A stretch of 64,000 bases of DNA from Pseudomonas sp. RIT409 (GTDB taxonomy: Bacteria; Pseudomonadota; Gammaproteobacteria; Pseudomonadales; Pseudomonadaceae): assembly GCF_003052515.2 (NCBI RefSeq), contig NZ_QARE02000014.1:62001-126000 (forward strand), written 5' to 3'. The position numbers and the translations under genes were made by a program. Position 1 is the stretch's first letter; the number at the start of each line of letters is the position of its first letter. A model generated the notes under the pieces. It saw only the letters and a list, made by a program, of their open reading frames with translations, ran no database searches and was not told the origin of the DNA. Of the stretch, positions 7,129 to 16,967 are shown piece by piece.

Positions 7129-7746
7129 TCAACCCCTGGGGCCGGAGGCCGGGTAAGTTTCCGTGAGGTCGAAATGGAAAGGCGCCGCGGTCCAGTATTC
7201 GAGAAGGAAGTCCTGGTCCTGGTGAACGACCAGACGCGTCATGCCCAACCGTTGGTGCAATCGTCGATGAACTGCCCCTCCTGTCTGTGGGCACCCGTCG
7301 ATGGGGTGTAGCCAGTGGCACGCCAGCACGCCACCTTCTGGTGTCAGGCTGGCGCGGGTCTGGTCAATGACGGCGTCCCATTGATCGGTGGACAGGTAAT
7401 AGCCAATCTCACCGAGCACGATCAGGTCGAAGGCGCCTTGCGGCCAATCCCGCGGTAGCGTGGCCTGCTCGACACGGGCATGGGGAAATTCGTTCAATCG
7501 CTCCCTGGCCAGGCTCACGGCTTTGGCATTGACGTCCTGGCAAAGCAAGTGCCTTGCCCGTTGCGCAAGGAGTCCGCTCAACTCGCCATTGGCGCAGGCG
7601 GGCTCGAAGATTCGGTCGTAGCGCTGACGGGGCAGCGTGGCCATGATCAAGGCGCGCTTGCGGTGCTCGTACCAGCGTGTGCGAAAGGACCAAGGGTCAT
7701 CGCTATCCGTGAAGAGTTGGTCGAAATAGGCTTCATTCACCGTCAT
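7129..7746 (-). CDS. SAM-dependent methyltransferase, NodS-like
   Basis: A 205-residue class I methyltransferase. Motif I is FEPACANGELSGLLAQRA (about 46-63), followed by an acidic strand end (CQDVNAKAV) and motif IV-like FDLIVLGEIGYYL. It resembles NodS-type N-methyltransferases. Its start overlaps the PIG-L gene by 14 bases. It is the last gene of a four-gene operon with a glycosyltransferase, an acyl-CoA dehydrogenase-like protein and a deacetylase, so its substrate is probably an amino sugar or glycolipid made by that set (inference). Confidence 0.78.
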   Translation of the reverse strand: MTVNEAYFDQLFTDSDDPWSFRTRWYEHRKRALIMATLPRQRYDRIFEPACANGELSGLLAQRARHLLCQDVNAKAVSLARERLNEFPHARVEQATLPRDWPQGAFDLIVLGEIGYYLSTDQWDAVIDQTRASLTPEGGVLACHWLHPIDGCPQTGGAVHRRLHQRLGMTRLVVHQDQDFLLEYWTAAPFHFDLTETYPASGPRG

Positions 7747-8524
7747 GGGAGCACCTGCTCAAAAACACCAGTTCGAAGGGCTGTAGCAGCCGTTGCAAGG
7801 TGGCTTCGGTCAAGACAGCCGGTTGTGTGCCCTGGGGCGTCAACTGGGTGACGTGGGCGGCGATGGCGGCGTGCTTGCTCTGCAGGGTGGGCGGGTCCAG
7901 CGCAATCTTGCGCGCGTGCGCCCAGGGGAGCCGTTCATCTTCCGGATCAGCCCAGTGCCAGGCCCAGACCGGCACCTCGATCAACGGCAGACCTCGTTCT
8001 GACGCTACCCGCGCGCATGCCTGGCCTGTGGCGTCGTGGTCGCAATGCCCATCATGACGCCACGTCGTGAGCACGGCATCCCCAGGCTGCAACACGGCGC
8101 GCAGGTGCTGCTCCAGCCGATCGATTCGGGAAGCGGCCGCGCTGTCCGGAAGGCCCAGCCGGTGCCACACGACTCGCTCGCTGTCCAACCCCAGACGATC
8201 CAACGCGAGGCGGCTCTCCTCGGGACGTTGCCGCCGCAGGGCTTCCGGCGTCCACTCCAGCGATTCGGGGTGACTGGCTTCGCCATCGGTGACCGCGATC
8301 ATCACCAGGCGCGCCTCGTCACCCGCCATCGCCCGAAGCAGGGCGCTGCAACCGAGAATTTCATCGTCTGGGTGCGGCGCTACCACCACCAGGCGTTCGA
8401 AGTTGTTGCGCAGCGTGAGCACCTCGATCCAGGGCGTACGGGCCACAGCGCGGGAGTGCTGCCATGCGGCGAGGGGCGTGCCTGGCCCTTGGATCGGGTT
8501 CTCTTCAAAGGTCACAGCATCCAT
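7733..8524 (-). CDS. PIG-L / LmbE family N-deacetylase
   Basis: A 263-residue zinc hydrolase. The metal-binding motif APHPDDE (49-55) follows a hydrophobic strand, and the second cluster DGHCDHDAT carries the later histidine/aspartate ligands. Family members remove the N-acetyl group from GlcNAc-containing glycosides (GlcNAc-PI, mycothiol, bacillithiol, antibiotics). No signal peptide, so cytoplasmic. The start overlaps the end of the acyl-CoA dehydrogenase gene by 13 bases, pointing to translational coupling. The substrate is presumably formed by the glycosyltransferase that leads the operon. Confidence 0.88.
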   Translation of the reverse strand: MDAVTFEENPIQGPGTPLAAWQHSRAVARTPWIEVLTLRNNFERLVVVAPHPDDEILGCSALLRAMAGDEARLVMIAVTDGEASHPESLEWTPEALRRQRPEESRLALDRLGLDSERVVWHRLGLPDSAAASRIDRLEQHLRAVLQPGDAVLTTWRHDGHCDHDATGQACARVASERGLPLIEVPVWAWHWADPEDERLPWAHARKIALDPPTLQSKHAAIAAHVTQLTPQGTQPAVLTEATLQRLLQPFELVFLSRCSHDGE

Positions 8525-9546
8525 GAGGCGTCACTCCCCGCCGCGGCCCATTGCCCCAGTTGGGCAAGATCGCGCTCCGCATGGCTCTGCCGCATGAAGA
8601 CCGGCAGGTCCGCTGCGAGCCGAGCGAAATGGCCGTTGCGGCAGAACGGCGCGGCGCCCAGCGCTCGGCCCACATGGTCCGTCACTTGGTGAACGGCGTA
8701 CTCGACCTGGGCCCGTGCCTGGAACGCCTGACGTGATGCGTCGGCATGTGGGTTGGCATCGACCCATGCAGCGCTGGCGCGTAGCAGCTCGCGAGCGCCG
8801 GCCAGTGCAGCGTCCACTGCGCCCAGGTGCGCCAAGGCGTGAGGGTCAACGTGGGATGACTGGCAGCGCCGATGCAGGTGACCCGCAAGGCCCAACGCCG
8901 CTCCGTACCAGCAGGCCGCGATGCCGATGCCGCCGTGCCAGAAGCCGGGGCGATTGACGTATTGTCCCGGTTCGCCCACGAGCACGGCAGGGTAATCGGT
9001 CAGTTCGAGGTCGACGGTTTGCGTAGCGGCCATGCCGACGGCCTGCCACTGGTCGACGATGACTTTTCCTTCGTGACGGTCAAGGTCAATCGCCGCCAGA
9101 CGGGGCTGTTGAGCGTCGTCCCATACGGTGAGCAGCGCATGGTCCACCTGCCGCGCGCCGGAGCACCAGGCCTTGCGTCCGCTCAGGCGCAGCACGTGGC
9201 CGTGTTGGGCGGTAATCCGCACCCGGGCGTCAGGCGGTTCTGCCGCCCAGACCGCCCACAGCCCCTTCGTTTGGGGTACGTTCGCCTGGCATTCATGGAG
9301 AATGGCCAGCGCGTCGGTGTGCGATTCGTAGAGCTTGGCCAGGCACAGGTCGGCGGCTGCCACCTGTGCCAGTCGCTGCCAACGCTCCAGCGTGGCGCCG
9401 GCGCCGGGGAAGGGCAACCGGTCAAGTGAAGCCGAATGCAGCGCGCGCAGCGCCTCGGCAATTTGCGTGGCAGAGTGATCGCGGGTGTCAGCCTCAGCCA
9501 CAGGCCGAAGTAGCGTTTCGAGTGCCGACGGGTCGAGGGAGGTCAT
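8512..9546 (-). CDS. Acyl-CoA dehydrogenase-like flavoprotein
   Basis: A 344-residue protein with the helical acyl-CoA dehydrogenase layout: an N-terminal helical part, a central beta segment (VRITAQHGHVLRLSGRKAWCSGA, then LLTVWDDAQQPRLAAIDL) and a C-terminal helical bundle (RPGFWHGGIGIAACWYGAALGLAGHL onward). It is slightly shorter than standard members (about 380). The start at 9546 overlaps the glycosyltransferase stop by four bases; the frame is open further upstream but lies entirely over that gene. Probable role is oxidation of a tethered acyl or amino substrate in this operon; the catalytic base was not identified. Confidence 0.75.
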   Translation of the reverse strand: MTSLDPSALETLLRPVAEADTRDHSATQIAEALRALHSASLDRLPFPGAGATLERWQRLAQVAAADLCLAKLYESHTDALAILHECQANVPQTKGLWAVWAAEPPDARVRITAQHGHVLRLSGRKAWCSGARQVDHALLTVWDDAQQPRLAAIDLDRHEGKVIVDQWQAVGMAATQTVDLELTDYPAVLVGEPGQYVNRPGFWHGGIGIAACWYGAALGLAGHLHRRCQSSHVDPHALAHLGAVDAALAGARELLRASAAWVDANPHADASRQAFQARAQVEYAVHQVTDHVGRALGAAPFCRNGHFARLAADLPVFMRQSHAERDLAQLGQWAAAGSDASWML

Positions 9547-11525: not shown

Positions 11526-13484
11526 TTACCCAGCCTCAGCCGAGTTGGCGTTCAGCACGCTTTTCAACTTGCCCAGTAACTCGGGGATCTGGAAGGGCTT
11601 GGTGATCAGGTCCATTCGGTCGCCGAGAAAGGCCTGACGATTCAACGCGTTTTCGGCGTAACCGGTCATGAACAATACGGGTACGTCAGGACGCTGGTGT
11701 CTCATTGCATCGGCCAATTCGCGCCCGTTCATACGCGGCAGGCCGACGTCGGTCAGCAGCAGGTCGACGGAAGGGTCCCGGCCCAGGATATCCAGCGCCG
11801 TTTCGACATCCGCCGCCGCGCTGCACCGGTAGCCCGCATCGGTCAGCACCTCGGTCACGAACATACGCACCGAGTCAGTGTCTTCAACGACCAGAATGTG
11901 TTCGCCGGTGCCAGCCGAGGCGGGTTCCGCAGGAGGCTGCTCCGCGACGGATTGCTGCTCGGCGGCAGGCAGCATCAGCGTCACTTCGGTGCCCTGTGAC
12001 AAGACGCTGCGCAGCCTGACATCCCCACCGGATTGTCGGGCGAAACCGTAGATGGTCGACAAGCCCAGCCCAGTGCCCTGACCGACAGGCTTTGTGGTGT
12101 AGAAGGGGTCGAACACTTTGTCGATTACAAGGGGATCGATACCCACGCCATCGTCCTTAACCGTCAGGGCGATGTAGGGGCCGTCGGCGAGTTGGAGATC
12201 TCCCCGCATACAGGTTTCGAATGTACTGATGCGAATGGTGCCGCCATCGGGCAGCGCATCCCGTGCATTGATGACGAGGTTGAGAATCGCACTTTCCAAC
12301 TGACCGGTGTCGACCATCGCAATCGCGTTGCGTGAGGTCAGTTCCAGCGACAGGCTGATGCGCTCGCCAATGGTACGGCTCAGCAGGTCTTCCAGCGAGC
12401 GCACGCGCGCGTTGACGTCGCAAGGTTGGGCATCGAGCGGTTGCTGGCGGGCGAACGCCAACAGGCGAAGCGTGAGGCTCGCTGCACTTTTGGCCGATGA
12501 CAGCGCGGCTTCGGCATAGGTGAGCAATTTCTGCGGCTGTGCATCCAGCGTGCGCTTCTTGATCAGTTCCAGGCCTGTGATGATGCCGGTCAGCAAGTTG
12601 TTGAAGTCATGCGCAATGCCGCCGGTCAACTTGCCGATGGCGTCCATCTTCTGTGCCTGCAGCAGCCGTTCTTCCGTTTTGGCGCGTTCGGCGACTTCAA
12701 GGGCCAGTTGATGATTGACCGTCTTGAGTGCTTGCTGATGGGACTGCTCGCGCAGGTGGTGCTCGGTCACGTCTTCAATGAACACCAGGCTCGCGCCGCT
12801 GGCGCGGTAAGGCGAAACGCGCCACTCCGTTTCGCGCAGGTCACCCCTGACCCAGAGGCTCAAGGTGCCTTGCCAGCGCTCGCCTGTGTTGATCGCTTCG
12901 CGCAGGCCTGTCAGTTGCAGCGCCTGCCCATCGCGGAACAGCGGTGTCATCGGCTGGCCGGGAGGTGAATCATCCAACAGACGGGCGAACGCCTGATTGC
13001 ATTCGTGAACACTGAGGTCGCCGCCCATTACCGCGATCGGCGCGGCAACGTTGGCGAAGATTTCGCGGAAGCGGTCCTCGCTTTCGCGCAGCGCGCTTTC
13101 CGTGTCGCGCACCCTCAGCAAGGTGCGGATCGTGGCCAGCAACACGTCTGGGTCCACCGGGTGAACGAGGTAGGCATCGGCACCGGCTTCCAGGCCCGTG
13201 ACGATGTCTCCGGACTGAATCGAAGCCGCCGAGACATGGACGACAGGCAGCAGCGCCGTGCGAGGCACCGAGCGCAGCAGGCGCACGATGTCGAAGCCGC
13301 TCATGTCCGGCAGGTTGACATCGAGGATCAGCGCGTCGGGCAGGTCGGCCGCGATCAGTGCCAACCCTTCCGATCCGGTCCCGACGTCGGCAACGGTGAA
13401 GCCGTGCCGTTCCATCCGACGGCGCAGGGCGTAGCGGGTCGCGACATTGTCGTCGACGATGAGCAGACGCGCGTTTCTATGCAT
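11526..13484 (-). CDS. Hybrid histidine kinase, REC-PAS-HisKA-HATPase-REC
   Basis: 652 residues. An N-terminal receiver (Asp55 in LILDVNLPD) has His108 where the conserved receiver lysine is expected (YLVHPVDP). A PAS domain (about 135-245) follows, then a short coiled coil, HisKA with GGIAHDFNNLL, an HATPase (VKDDGVGID, GTGLGLS), and a C-terminal receiver with intact DV and ITKPF. It is the last gene of the stressosome operon and overlaps the preceding kinase by 8 bases. It is probably the output side of RsbT signalling. No DNA-binding domain is present, so a further partner is needed. Confidence 0.9.
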   Translation of the reverse strand: MHRNARLLIVDDNVATRYALRRRMERHGFTVADVGTGSEGLALIAADLPDALILDVNLPDMSGFDIVRLLRSVPRTALLPVVHVSAASIQSGDIVTGLEAGADAYLVHPVDPDVLLATIRTLLRVRDTESALRESEDRFREIFANVAAPIAVMGGDLSVHECNQAFARLLDDSPPGQPMTPLFRDGQALQLTGLREAINTGERWQGTLSLWVRGDLRETEWRVSPYRASGASLVFIEDVTEHHLREQSHQQALKTVNHQLALEVAERAKTEERLLQAQKMDAIGKLTGGIAHDFNNLLTGIITGLELIKKRTLDAQPQKLLTYAEAALSSAKSAASLTLRLLAFARQQPLDAQPCDVNARVRSLEDLLSRTIGERISLSLELTSRNAIAMVDTGQLESAILNLVINARDALPDGGTIRISTFETCMRGDLQLADGPYIALTVKDDGVGIDPLVIDKVFDPFYTTKPVGQGTGLGLSTIYGFARQSGGDVRLRSVLSQGTEVTLMLPAAEQQSVAEQPPAEPASAGTGEHILVVEDTDSVRMFVTEVLTDAGYRCSAAADVETALDILGRDPSVDLLLTDVGLPRMNGRELADAMRHQRPDVPVLFMTGYAENALNRQAFLGDRMDLITKPFQIPELLGKLKSVLNANSAEAG

Positions 13485-14349
13485 TTGCCTGCTCCTGCGC
13501 CAACGCCAAGGGGATGATCACGTAAAACGTCGAACCCTGGCCAGGCTGGCTGGTCAGGCCCACGCGGCCGCCCAACAGCTCGGCAAAACGCTTGCACAGC
13601 GATAAGCCCAGGCCGGTGCCCCGTAACCGCTTCTGCAGCGGTGAGTCGACCTGAACGAAATCTTCGAACAAGGTTTCGTGAAGTTCTTCGGGAATGCCGA
13701 TGCCGGTGTCGCTCACGGCGAAACGGACTTCACGGTCATTCTCCAGCCCGGCCGAGATGCGCACCTCGCCACGTTGGGTGAACTTGAGTGAGTTGGAAAT
13801 GAAGTTGCGCAGTATCTGCGCCAGCTTCTTGTCGTCCGTGTACAGCTGCGGCAAGCCGGCGGGCTCTTCGAAAATCAGGTCGACGGCCGAGGTGTCGACG
13901 ATGGGGCGGAACATGCCCCGCAGCGCCGAAAACAGATCCAGCATGTCGAACCAGGCGGGTGAGATGGAGATCCGGCCGGCTTCGATCTTGGCCAGGTCCA
14001 GCAGGTCGTTGACCATATCGCTCAGCTCCTGCGCGGAGGTGCTGATGTACGTGACCTGTTTGTGCTGCTCCGGGCTCAACGGGCCGTCCAGCTCATCGGT
14101 CAGCAGGCTGGCGATGCTCAGAATCGAGCCCAGCGGGGTGCGGAACTCATGGCTCATGTAAGACAGGAAGCGGCTTTTCAGGTCGGAAGCCTCACGCAGT
14201 TGTTCCGCCTGGTTGTCCAGTTCGGCATACAACGCCAGAACGCCCTGATTGGTCTCGTCCAGTTCGGCACGCAGCGCGTCCGCTTCGGCGCGCAAACGCA
14301 CGACTTCGTCCGACGCCCCGCCTGTTTCTTGGGTGTCAGGTCCTGTCAT
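13477..14349 (-). CDS. Cytoplasmic histidine kinase of stressosome operon
   Basis: 290 residues, no membrane segments. A coiled coil (about 15-58) runs into HisKA with His67 (SYMSHEFRTPL), then an HATPase with ISNSLKF (N box), FAVSDTGIGIP (G1) and GTGLGLSLCKR (G2). Without its own sensory domain, it fits activation by a soluble partner; in related operons RsbT is thought to act on such a kinase. It overlaps the upstream phosphatase by 14 bases and the downstream hybrid kinase by 8. The partner receivers are probably those of the next gene. Confidence 0.9.
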   Translation of the reverse strand: MTGPDTQETGGASDEVVRLRAEADALRAELDETNQGVLALYAELDNQAEQLREASDLKSRFLSYMSHEFRTPLGSILSIASLLTDELDGPLSPEQHKQVTYISTSAQELSDMVNDLLDLAKIEAGRISISPAWFDMLDLFSALRGMFRPIVDTSAVDLIFEEPAGLPQLYTDDKKLAQILRNFISNSLKFTQRGEVRISAGLENDREVRFAVSDTGIGIPEELHETLFEDFVQVDSPLQKRLRGTGLGLSLCKRFAELLGGRVGLTSQPGQGSTFYVIIPLALAQEQANA

Positions 14350-15355
14350 GGGAGCTCTCCAGTGCGATGACCAGTACGGTCACGTCGTCCTTGCCCCGAC
14401 AGTAGTCGCGGTGCAGCACGGCAGCGATGATGGCCGGGTGGCGAAACGTCAGGCCGGGGTAGTCGCGCAAATTCCAGCGTGACTGCAGGCCGTCGCTGTA
14501 TAGGATCAGCAACTGTCCGGCACAGTCAGGATAGGCCACCGAGGCGACCCGTCGATATTGCAGGCCGACGATGCCCGGATGCGATGGCAGGCCCCGGGGC
14601 CTCTCGCTGCCGACCAGCAGGGCGCCGATGTTGCCGATGCCGTTGAAGCGCAACTGGCGGTGCTCACCGTCGTAATGAGCCACTGCCACGGCCCCGCCGC
14701 GGGTGCCACGCATGGCGTGGTGCATGTCGTCCAGCAGGCTGGCGGGTTCGTCGGTGGGGTGACGCAGGAAAGCGCTGGCGCCTGCCCGCGCCGCTTGTTC
14801 GGCCGCAGGACCATGGCCCAGGCCATCGATGACCAGCGCCACGCATTTCTCGTCACGAACGCAGACCGCCCAGAGGTCGCCGCAGACCGGGTCGTCGTGG
14901 AGCGAATGTTGACTGACGCCGTAGCGAAGGTCCTCGATGGCCGAGTTGCGGGGGTAAAAGCGCGCCAGCACGACCGAGCCTCGGGCGTCCGTGTGCACGT
15001 CGAATACCTGGGCCTGGCGCAGCGCGGCACCGAGCCCGATGCCCTGCGTGCCTCGAGTCGAAAAACCATCAGGCAGGCACCGCGCCGGATCGAAGCCCGG
15101 GCCACGGTCCACCGCGAGCACTTCGACCCCCTCAGAGGGGCCGGGCAGGACGCGCAGATGAATGGTGCCATGGACGGCATGCTTGAGAATGTTGCTGGCC
15201 AGCTCAGTCACCACCAGGCCGACCCGGCCGACGTCGACGGTGTCGAAGCCCTGGCTCTCGGCCAGCTTCTGCGCAGTTCGCCGTGCGTGTCCGATCTGAC
15301 TGTCGTCTTCGATACGCAAGACCTGGGTCAGGCTTCCATTGAGCGTCAGGTCCAT
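14336..15355 (-). CDS. Fused anti-sigma-type ATPase and PP2C phosphatase (RsbX-like)
   Basis: 339 residues from the ATG at 15355. Residues 1 to about 130 form an RsbW/RsbT-like ATPase domain (VGLVVTELASNILKHA as N box, DRGPGFD, TQGIGLGAAL). The rest is a SpoIIE/RsbX phosphatase (DLWAVCV, VIDGLGHGPAAEQAA, LILYSDGLQSRW, GKDDVTVLVI). In Bacillus, RsbX dephosphorylates RsbR and RsbS to reset the stressosome, so the C-terminal half likely does this. The N-terminal ATPase is an added domain compared with RsbX. The frame is open 111 bases further upstream, but that would overlap rsbT heavily. Confidence 0.85.
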   Translation of the reverse strand: MDLTLNGSLTQVLRIEDDSQIGHARRTAQKLAESQGFDTVDVGRVGLVVTELASNILKHAVHGTIHLRVLPGPSEGVEVLAVDRGPGFDPARCLPDGFSTRGTQGIGLGAALRQAQVFDVHTDARGSVVLARFYPRNSAIEDLRYGVSQHSLHDDPVCGDLWAVCVRDEKCVALVIDGLGHGPAAEQAARAGASAFLRHPTDEPASLLDDMHHAMRGTRGGAVAVAHYDGEHRQLRFNGIGNIGALLVGSERPRGLPSHPGIVGLQYRRVASVAYPDCAGQLLILYSDGLQSRWNLRDYPGLTFRHPAIIAAVLHRDYCRGKDDVTVLVIALESSHDRT

Positions 15356-15750
15356 TTTCCGATCATCACTCGCGTGCCTTTGCCCGGCGCCGTGTCCAGT
15401 TCGAAATCGTCCACCAGGCGTTTTGCGCCGGTCAGGCCCAGGCCCAACCCCTTGCCCGATGACCAACCATCGGTCATCGCCATTTTGATGTCCGGAATGC
15501 CGGGCCCCTCGTCACGAAATGTCAGGCGCAGGCCGTTGCGGCCGGCGTCCTCGAGGACTTCCCAATCCATGGCGCCACCGCCGCCGTAGACGATGGTGTT
15601 GCGCGCGAGCTCCGACACGGCGGTGACCAGCTTGGTCTGGTCGATCAGGCGCATGCCGCTGTCCTGAGCCAGCTTGCGGACGAACTGGCGAGCCAGCACG
15701 ACATCCTGTTCGATGCGAATCTCTTGGGTGCCGCTGCTCTGCACGGTCAT
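15346..15750 (-). CDS. rsbT: RsbT serine/threonine kinase
   Basis: A 134-residue GHKL-fold kinase. N box KLVTAVSELARNTIVYGGGG, G1 FRDEGPGIPD and G2 GLGLGLTGAKRLVDDF match RsbT closely. In the family RsbT phosphorylates the STAS domains of RsbR and RsbS under stress, then leaves the complex to activate its output protein. Start and stop overlap both neighbours (4 and 10 bases). No RsbU or sigma-B is nearby, so the target here is probably the downstream kinase pair. Confidence 0.92.
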   Translation of the reverse strand: MTVQSSGTQEIRIEQDVVLARQFVRKLAQDSGMRLIDQTKLVTAVSELARNTIVYGGGGAMDWEVLEDAGRNGLRLTFRDEGPGIPDIKMAMTDGWSSGKGLGLGLTGAKRLVDDFELDTAPGKGTRVMIGKWT

Positions 15751-16109
15751 TGGAGGTATGCCCGCTCGCGGAGCAAGGCCATGCCACGATCGACATTCAG
15801 CGCGGTGCTGACACCAGGCAGGGTCATGCCCAGTTCGACGAGAGTGATCGCCACTGCCGGTTGCATCCCTACCAGCACGGTCTCTGCATCCATGATGCGG
15901 GACAGCCCGGAAATCATGCCGATCATTCGGCCAATGAACGAATCCACCATGTCCAGCGCCGAAATGTCGATCAGCACGCCGCGCGCGGAGGTCTTGCTGA
16001 TCCGTTCCGAGAGGTCATCCTGCAATGTCATCGCCAATTGGTCGTGCATGTCGACCTGAATGGTGACCAGCAGGAAGTCCCCCATTTGTAGAATCGGTGT
16101 CCGTTCCAT
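15747..16109 (-). CDS. rsbS: RsbS stressosome STAS protein
   Basis: A 120-residue single STAS domain. DISALDMVDSFIGRMIG places Ser57 at the site phosphorylated by RsbT (Ser59 in Bacillus), and GMQPAVAITLVELGM matches RsbS strongly. RsbS and RsbR form the large icosahedral complex that holds RsbT in unstressed cells. It lies three bases after rsbR and overlaps rsbT by four bases. Confidence 0.93.
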   Translation of the reverse strand: MERTPILQMGDFLLVTIQVDMHDQLAMTLQDDLSERISKTSARGVLIDISALDMVDSFIGRMIGMISGLSRIMDAETVLVGMQPAVAITLVELGMTLPGVSTALNVDRGMALLRERAYLQ

Positions 16110-16112
16110 GGG

Positions 16113-16967
16113 TTACACCGACGACTTGGCGACGGCCAGGCCCAGGCGACGCAAGGCCAGGCCGAGCGCATCGGCAAGGTTGGCCTTGGTCACCACGCCT
16201 TGCAAATCGAGCCCGAGGTGCACGATGGTCTGGGCGATCTGTGGGCGCACGCCACTGATGATGCAATCGGCACCCATCAGTCGGATCGCGGTCACGGTCT
16301 TGAGCAGGTGCTGCGCAACCAGGGTGTCCACGGTGGGCACGCCGGTAATGTCGATGATCGCGATCTGCGAGCCAGTGTCGACAATGCGCTGAAGCAACGA
16401 TTCCATGACCATCTGGGTGCGCTGGGAATCGAGCGTGCCGATCATGGGCAGCGCCAGGACGCCATCCCACAGTTTGACCACTGGCGTTGAAAGCTCCAGC
16501 AGTTCTTCTTGCTGTCGTTTGATGACGGCCTCGCGGGATTTCTGGAAGGTGCGGATGGTGTGCAAGGCCAGCAAGTCCAGCAGTTGGGAGATTTCCCAGA
16601 GCTGCTCAGCCAGCACCTCGGGTTGGTCACGGTACTCCGCTTGCAGGATGGAGAACAGCGGGCCTTTCAAGGCAAAAATGAACTGAGCGGTCTGCTCGGA
16701 ATCCTGTCCGGCCAGGGCTCTCTGACTGGAAAGCTTTTCCAGGAAAAGCCGGGTGTCGTTCCATTCGCTGGCGCTGATCGTTTGCGAAGCGCCACCTGTC
16801 AGCGCAGACACAACGAGTTGCAGGAATTCGGCGATTTGCTGACGTACGTCTTCCGCTTTGAGGTTACGCGTGGAGCCACTGGCCTCGAGCGCCGCCCACC
16901 AGTTTTCCGACAACTGCTGTTCGGAGCGGGCGATAGCGTTCAGGGTGTTTTGATGCAGTGCTGCCAT
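16113..16967 (-). CDS. rsbR: RsbR stressosome sensor protein
   Basis: A 284-residue protein with an N-terminal helical domain (1 to about 155, globin-like in this family), a linker helix, and a C-terminal STAS domain. The STAS part has DITGVPTVDT (Thr208, Thr212, Thr215) and GVRPQIAQTIVHLG (Thr247), which cover the region of the two RsbT-phosphorylated threonines of Bacillus RsbR. I cannot fix the exact equivalence of the first. The N-terminal turret varies between homologues and is taken to sense the signal; none is identifiable here. First gene of the six-gene operon. Confidence 0.92.
   Translation of the reverse strand: MAALHQNTLNAIARSEQQLSENWWAALEASGSTRNLKAEDVRQQIAEFLQLVVSALTGGASQTISASEWNDTRLFLEKLSSQRALAGQDSEQTAQFIFALKGPLFSILQAEYRDQPEVLAEQLWEISQLLDLLALHTIRTFQKSREAVIKRQQEELLELSTPVVKLWDGVLALPMIGTLDSQRTQMVMESLLQRIVDTGSQIAIIDITGVPTVDTLVAQHLLKTVTAIRLMGADCIISGVRPQIAQTIVHLGLDLQGVVTKANLADALGLALRRLGLAVAKSSV

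Follow-up and report, generated by a model that had tools for sequence, protein, structure and literature searches.

Stressosome genes followed by a two-component module have been described in Vibrio vulnificus and V. brasiliensis, where rsbRSTX precedes the genes for D1 and D2 (PMC9237108, PMC10014275, PMC4976288; statements on cited papers refer to the portions of their text that were available). For the V. vulnificus proteins, the available text reports that no RsbU_N domain was found (PMC9237108). In Bacillus subtilis, RsbT makes the linker of RsbU form a short coiled coil, which activates the phosphatase (PMC12143880). In Burkholderia terrae, rsbR, rsbS, and rsbT were reported to be expressed, in part from low read counts (PMC5209427), and the RsbRST module is cited in PMC2887360. 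The present analysis concerns a six-gene operon of Pseudomonas sp. RIT409. It lies in a stretch of 64,000 nucleotides (referred to here as the window; contig NZ_QARE02000014.1, positions 62,001 to 126,000) and encodes RsbR, RsbS, RsbT, an RsbX-like protein (X), a histidine kinase (HK), and a hybrid histidine kinase (HHK). The operon is a real and widely conserved variant of the module in which rsbR, rsbS, rsbT, and rsbX (RSTX) are followed by kinases. We consider it fairly probable that it specifies a stressosome with a His-Asp phosphorelay output, in which free RsbT switches on HK through a coiled-coil linker and the signal then passes to HHK.

The HK linker and the receiver that follows it

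The linker of HK (residues 26 to 45; motif ELxETNxGVxALYxEL) is a near-invariant coiled coil. In an alignment of 28 rows, mostly from Pseudomonas, the mean column entropy amounted to 0.24 bits in the linker, 2.12 bits just before it, 0.69 bits just after it, and 0.77 bits in the ATPase domain. The phospho-His helix had a mean of 0.37 bits, with its best 20-residue windows at 0.15 bits, below the linker mean; the mean of the linker was the lowest of all HK segments averaged. The best heptad register placed V16, L19, A23, L26, L30, T33, V37, L40, and L44 in the core, with the invariant polar residue Thr33 within it. In the structural model of HK (single chain, mean pLDDT of 81), residues 10 to 84 form one helix that contains the linker.

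A linker profile of 17 rows, which included the related loci L131 and L132 and left out L085, was used to search 398 genomes from the phylum (cut-off E ≤ 1e-5). It matched 17 genomes with one copy each. All 17 belong to the 28 genomes in which rsbT was matched at E ≤ 1e-20, and the linker was positioned 1,036 to 1,558 nt from rsbT. Among 148 genomes of the family, 58 had an rsbT match at E ≤ 1e-3. In 45 of these the best match was below 1e-30, and exactly these 45 genomes carry the linker; the other 13 had weak rsbT matches only. Across both sets (398 and 148 genomes, related to one another), the linker was found beside rsbT only. Pfam analysis revealed no RsbU_N domain in 17 linker kinases (window, L074, L081, L083, L084, L118 to L121, L127 to L133, and L144). 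This domain was present in three of nine stressosome kinases without the linker (L134, L135, and L137, not L125, L138, L139, L140, L142, or L143).

The linker also occurs in other protein contexts. In nine kinases, Pfam detected an RsbT-like domain fused N-terminal to the linker. The order in L084, L118 to L121, L129, and L144 is RsbT-like domain, linker, HisKA kinase, and REC, and in L133 the RsbT-like part is weak in the profile and was not detected by Pfam. The 45 linker frames of the family comprise 27 of 585 to 634 residues with an RsbT-like match and 18 of 290 to 339 residues. In L131 and L132, the fused RsbT-like domain and the linker are followed by a CckA-like kinase. The linker of these two proteins is 65 to 75% identical to that of the window, and their kinase core is 28 to 30% identical to HK and 45 to 56% identical to HHK; because both loci are among the 17 profile rows, this case rests on pairwise comparison. 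In the Streptomyces locus L085, the linker precedes a SpoIIE-type, RsbU-like phosphatase (E value of 4.5e-42), and the region before it reads, by eye, like a degenerate RsbT domain. The linker is doubled in L074, L077, L081, and L083. This portability is stronger evidence for the linker as a coupling element than co-occurrence. Together with the RsbT-like fusions, it supports the prediction that the linker mediates the action of RsbT on the kinase, as has been reported for RsbU.

The protein encoded after HK starts with a receiver (REC1) that lacks the conserved lysine. Lysine was found in none of the 84 receivers scored among 92 linker loci, 8 of which have no receiver-headed protein by the rule used. 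At this position the script found His in 76 cases, Glu in 4, and Gln in 1, and reading of the letters gave His, Gln, and Ala for L069, L129, and L133. The aspartate of REC1 is kept in 108 of 108 aligned receiver rows. The lysine-less receiver is followed by PAS-HK-REC in the window, by HK alone in L118, L119, and L120, by GAF-HK in L084, and by PP2C in L074, L077, L081, and L083. Because the domains after the receiver vary, the step from HK to the lysine-less receiver appears to be the constant one. REC2 of HHK is canonical, with Lys in 93 of 93 rows, and the residues of a phosphorelay are present (HK His67, REC1 Asp55, and REC2 Asp579). HHK residues 262 to 648 (HisKA-HATPase-REC) are closest to the PRK13557 and CckA models and score below both cut-offs. 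No GGDEF, EAL, or HD domain was detected in HK or HHK by Pfam.

Composition and conservation of the operon

The six genes are closely spaced in a single operon on the minus strand (11526-16967), and their open reading frames were verified in the window (Table 1). A gap of 3 nt separates rsbR from rsbS, and the following genes overlap by 4 nt (rsbS/rsbT), 10 nt (rsbT/X), 14 nt (X/HK), and 8 nt (HK/HHK). The rsbT/X overlap was computed with the ATG at 15355 as the start of X, the start common to homologues; the open frame of X extends upstream to a TTG at 15466.

Table 1. Positions of the genes and domains of the operon in the window
Feature	Position	Strand	Description
rsbR	16113..16967	(-)	284 aa; Pfam RsbRD_N 5.7e-17 and STAS 2.7e-14; solved RsbR E 1.5e-33
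rsbS	15747..16109	(-)	120 aa; STAS scaffold; best match to solved RsbS 3e-30
rsbT	15346..15750	(-)	134 aa; GHKL switch kinase; Pfam HATPase_c 1.7e-12
rsbX-like gene (X)	14336..15355	(-)	339 aa; Pfam HATPase_c_2 and SpoIIE; T'-PP2C fusion
T' domain inside X	14954..15322	(-)	Pfam HATPase_c_2; N-box and G1 aspartate intact
PP2C domain inside X	14360..14938	(-)	Metal-binding aspartates intact
HK	13477..14349	(-)	290 aa, His67; Pfam HisKA and HATPase_c; cytoplasmic, without sensor domain
HK coiled-coil linker, residues 26-45	14215..14274	(-)	LRAELDETNQGVLALYAELD
HHK (hybrid kinase)	11526..13484	(-)	652 aa; Pfam REC-PAS-HisKA-HATPase-REC
REC1 of HHK	13101..13475	(-)	Atypical receiver; Asp55 present; His108 in place of the conserved Lys
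REC2 of HHK	11550..11906	(-)	Canonical receiver; Asp579, Lys629

An original prediction, made from the letters of the window, had described rsbR, rsbS, and rsbT in this order with overlapping or nearly touching ends and an RsbS that keeps the serine targeted by RsbT, and both statements were confirmed. In the alignment to solved RsbS proteins, Ser57 corresponds to a serine for which the RsbS of entry 9o4r, although it matches otherwise, has Ala, and the position is Ser in 102 of 107 aligned rows. The threonine motifs predicted for the STAS domain of RsbR were found in part. Thr215 is kept as Thr and the other phosphorylation site is Ser181, so that RsbR has one Thr and one Ser in place of two phosphorylated threonines. 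Position 181 is Thr in the solved protein 7b0u, Ser in the solved protein 7o0i, and Ser in 79 of 81 family rows. RsbR combines an N-terminal sensor domain (RsbRD_N) with STAS, as required of a stressosome RsbR. The solved stressosome proteins aligned with RsbS and RsbR are presumably from Bacillus, Listeria, Moorella, and Vibrio. The ATP site of RsbT is intact, with E47, N51, D80, and G82 invariant in 138 rows that comprise free RsbT and fused RsbT-like domains and would not count degenerate domains. By gene content, the operon is of the Gram-negative RsbRST stressosome type.

The phosphatase and two kinases that were predicted to follow rsbRST are present in the six-gene operon; the phosphatase, however, is a fusion of an RsbT-like ATPase (T') with a C-terminal RsbX-like PP2C. 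The residues E, N, and D of T' are invariant in 122 of 122 rows, and the first G1 glycine is replaced by Ala in 28 of the 122 and is Gly in the window. The PP2C part is nearest by sequence to Moorella MtX (3zt9) and RsbX (3w40). The fold of the X model (pLDDT of 92) resembles MtX/RsbX, and Foldseek also returned SpoIIAB (rank 24, E value of 4.7e-6). X is an RsbX-type PP2C encoded immediately after rsbRST, as in the RSTX module, yet it is not a single-domain protein (HATPase_c_2 and SpoIIE). Profiles detected the fusion in 80 of the 80 loci compared (see below). In the distant relatives L135 and L142, the second RsbT-like domain is encoded by a separate gene upstream of a plain PP2C. X thus looks like an RsbX-type reset phosphatase, not RsbU, with an added switch-kinase-like domain. 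Another distant relative, L138 (9067-10113), encodes an RsbT-like ATPase fused to a PP2C phosphatase, and no separate rsbT was scored there.

Among the six genes, Pfam revealed no sigma factor, RsbU, RsbV, or RsbW, and RsbU_N gave 0 matches in the genome of the window. The predicted lack of RsbU, RsbV, RsbW, and sigma-B stands for the operon; sigma-B was not searched genome-wide, and the genome has further PP2C and STAS genes outside the window, so the statement on RsbU, RsbV, and RsbW is confined to the operon. Partner-switching-like genes occur at two further places in this genome (G000), C21:25776-28102 and C20:45631-47114, which encode STAS, PP2C-HATPase, and a small Hpt protein and REC-PP2C and STAS, respectively. 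As candidate phosphate acceptors, twelve Hpt-domain matches were found in the genome, one of them in a 135-aa frame adjoining PP2C and STAS genes. This frame and its neighbors we take to be like HptB-HsbR-HsbA of Pseudomonas aeruginosa; they show no link to HHK and serve as a lead only. No output domain is encoded within the operon, in agreement with the prediction of a kinase pair without DNA-binding output.

The RsbT scan yielded at least 387 related stretches, of which the best 80 (nearest relatives) were used as the locus set. Most belong to Pseudomonas; Stutzerimonas, Xanthomonas, Lysobacter, and Dyella are represented as well, as are a few other taxa. In 74 of the 80 loci, each of the six proteins had a BLAST match and the matches lay close together on the same strand, a test of strand and distance only in which other receiver-headed proteins were counted as HHK. 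The complete domain order of the window, scored by profiles, was found in 63 of the 80. Absence of the kinase genes from the rsbRST operons of relatives had been named as grounds for rejecting the prediction, and these counts gave no such grounds. By DNA, the nearest operon among the loci compared is that of Pseudomonas graminis (75%). A genome of the window's genus (G054) shares 84% DNA identity with a named Pseudomonas locus over 7.1 kb, in agreement with an origin of the window in Pseudomonas. The most widespread flanking gene was common to 18 of the 80 loci (frames of at least 100 aa, E ≤ 1e-15, 60% coverage), and the six genes are thus the unit. For the same reason, a shared output regulator beside the operon was rejected. 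Beyond the 80, the analysis covered 19 loci of the phylum, including one from the family of the window; nine have a linker kinase, and all nine have the fused X.

The exceptions to the complete order are of several kinds. The contig ends after HK in L024 and L066, the hybrid kinase is short and lacks REC2 in L060, the RN domain is missing in place in L061, and the open frame lacks the linker in L064. A more distant REC-HK-REC hybrid is present in L080, L086, and L087. The last protein is REC-PP2C in L074, L077, L081, and L083 and REC-GAF-HK in L084 (Granulicella). The linker stands before the phosphatase in L085, and no kinase was seen in L071 and L082. In L043 (Pseudomonas cedrina, 7396-9258), X and HK form one frame of 620 residues with no REC2 in frame, which is either a natural fusion or a sequence error.

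The surroundings of the operon were also analyzed. Rfam gave no match anywhere in the window, and promoter and terminator scans were at chance level only. A conserved promoter site upstream of rsbR was rejected: the commonest 8-mer occurred in 21 of 90 non-redundant upstream stretches and, by eye, appears clade-bound and is not in the window. In a Pseudomonas clade (e.g., L030, L042, and L044), a stretch around AACAACTATTTCATCCGGCAAAnGTCA is conserved less than 100 nt before the rsbR start and is absent in the window; it is a possible promoter or regulator site. In L127, the gene for a REC-GerE (LuxR-type) regulator lies 15 nt past the hybrid kinase gene. The best match to it in the genome of the window had 41% identity in the matched part and was 1 of 14 at E ≤ 1e-10, and no orthologue is claimed. 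A lone receiver follows the hybrid kinase in L129. In the Pseudomonas loci L019 (11402-13657), L021, L023, L025, and L035, a bacteriophytochrome kinase gene follows that of the hybrid kinase on the same strand at a distance of about 150 nt (PHY domain by Pfam, run on L019 only). L125 (3029-8790; genome G108, of the window's family) represents another type of stressosome operon and encodes a PAS-PAS-STAS RsbR, RsbS, RsbT, a kinase, a REC-REC-Hpt protein, and a REC-HD protein (HD_5), and its relay may end in a cyclic-di-GMP phosphodiesterase. Genome G108 holds this type of operon plus a linker-type operon (L119).

Predicted signal flow and alternative explanations

By homology, RsbR and RsbS would hold RsbT, which under stress would phosphorylate Ser57 of RsbS as well as RsbR and then leave. 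Comparative evidence suggests that free RsbT would bind and activate HK via the coiled-coil linker, in the manner of the RsbU linker in B. subtilis. HK would then pass its phosphate to REC1 of HHK or dock on it, and HHK would phosphorylate its own REC2 or a regulator encoded at another site in the genome; the final target would be encoded outside the operon. X may reset RsbR and RsbS, and its T' domain probably tethers X to the stressosome or acts as a second switch kinase. A path from RsbT to HK and HHK had been part of the original prediction. It gains support from the RsbT-like domains fused to such kinases via the same linker, and the RsbT-HK contact and the phosphotransfer remain predicted. 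Beyond this path, the linker could be an autonomous RsbT input module that serves RsbU-like phosphatases as well as kinases of the HisKA and CckA-like types; its RsbT-like partner would act in trans (window) or be fused (relatives). The linker would thereby connect Ser/Thr partner switching to a His-Asp phosphorelay without RsbU_N. This generalization is put forward tentatively, as a serious possibility that we stop short of calling probable.

Several points weigh against these proposals. Co-occurrence of the linker with rsbT alone says little, because any segment of an operon gene co-occurs with the operon. L139 encodes a fusion of an RsbT-like domain with a HisKA_2/HWE kinase that has no linker, and the linker is thus not needed in every RsbT-kinase fusion. 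Genomes with the fused RsbT-like domain also keep a free RsbT; the fused domain may do another job, e.g., tether the kinase, and the RsbT of the window need not replace it. Portability rests on two loci for the CckA-like kinase and on one for the phosphatase. Ten of the 19 further phylum loci lack the linker, and three of these ten have the fused X. In the genus of the window, the linker was found in 8 of the 19 genomes listed, which indicates that the system is dispensable. REC1, without the conserved lysine, may not signal in the usual way. For V. vulnificus, the available text states that the authors failed to obtain a positive interaction between RsbT and D1 (PMC9237108).

The kinase might instead be held on the stressosome. 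RsbT-like domains (T' or RsbT) would then serve as adaptors bringing the kinase and the phosphatase to RsbS, and release upon RsbS phosphorylation would alter kinase activity. The presence of both free RsbT and a kinase-fused RsbT-like domain in relatives would fit such an arrangement, as would the RsbT-like domain of X itself. In Actinobacteria (L085 and L074, by eye), a degenerate RsbT-like region precedes a retained linker, as an adaptor would. However, HK of the window has no RsbT-like domain, and the fused domains detected by profiles keep their ATP-site residues (E, N, and D in the 138 rows, free and fused). We regard recruitment by adaptors as unlikely.

Direct phosphorylation of a Ser or Thr of HK or HHK by RsbT (or T'), as a transient step, appears less likely still. 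Heinz et al. proposed direct phosphorylation by RsbT for Vibrio D1 (PMC9237108), and Thr33 of the HK linker is invariant in the aligned rows. The linker, however, is conserved throughout, including Asn34, Gly36, Val37, Leu40, and Tyr41, which suggests a binding surface or a helix register over a single acceptor residue. It would be more surprising again if the two kinases were mere neighbors that share expression with the stressosome and answer their own signals, for instance through the PAS domain that HHK does possess. HK is sensorless, its gene overlaps both adjacent genes by 8 to 14 nt, the six genes are conserved as a block while the flanks change, and RsbT-like domains are fused to the kinase in relatives, all of which makes such independence very improbable.

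Activation of HK by free RsbT through the linker is therefore the reading that we prefer. The linker, 20 residues common to three kinds of effector, is a concrete docking candidate with exact residues to change. It would offer a specific, residue-level answer to the question of how the RsbT signal arrives at a histidine kinase when neither sigma-B nor RsbU_N takes part. If true, this would be a second route of RsbT to effectors that needs no RsbU_N and was not found in the literature searched. The result would apply beyond one species because the best 80 loci span several genera. Among the open-access papers listed by the searches, judged from titles and abstract openings, none was seen to concern this operon in Pseudomonas, the linker, or a histidine kinase fused to an RsbT-like domain.

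Comparison with known systems

CckA-like and PRK13557 hybrids share the HisKA-HATPase-REC layout with HHK, which differs from them by its N-terminal lysine-less receiver and by scores below the cut-offs. The stressosome kinases with RsbU_N (Heinz 2022; L134, L135, and L137) are likewise proteobacterial histidine kinases encoded next to rsbRST or rsbT, whereas their input would run via RsbU_N and not via the linker motif. The B. subtilis pair resembles the predicted RsbT-HK pair in having an RsbT-type partner and an effector whose coiled-coil linker has polar residues in its core (PMC12143880). The HK register with Thr33 in the core appears to resemble the weak RsbU linker described in the available text of that paper. 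In contrast, B. subtilis RsbT binds RsbU_N plus the linker (PMC12143880), and HK of the window has no RsbU_N and would be a histidine kinase effector.

The pairing of a stressosome with a two-component system is of a known kind, since it is already in print (PMC9237108, PMC10014275). The likeness to Vibrio that had been predicted holds for the general plan, an R-S-T-X core followed by two-component proteins without sigma-B, and not for the sensor, X, and the cyclic-di-GMP part of the architecture. RsbR of the O2-sensing Vibrio stressosome has a globin sensor, whereas RsbR of the window has RsbRD_N and gave no globin match in Pfam. According to the available text, Vibrio X is a single-domain PP2C (PMC9237108), in contrast to the ATPase-PP2C fusion of the window, and the Vibrio module is predicted to act on cyclic-di-GMP (PMC10014275), whereas the window operon has no cyclic-di-GMP domain. 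The linker motif is described here for HK of the window. Relative to the known Vibrio module, the operon differs by the ATPase-PP2C fusion, the linker kinase, the lysine-less receiver, and an architecture free of cyclic-di-GMP domains.

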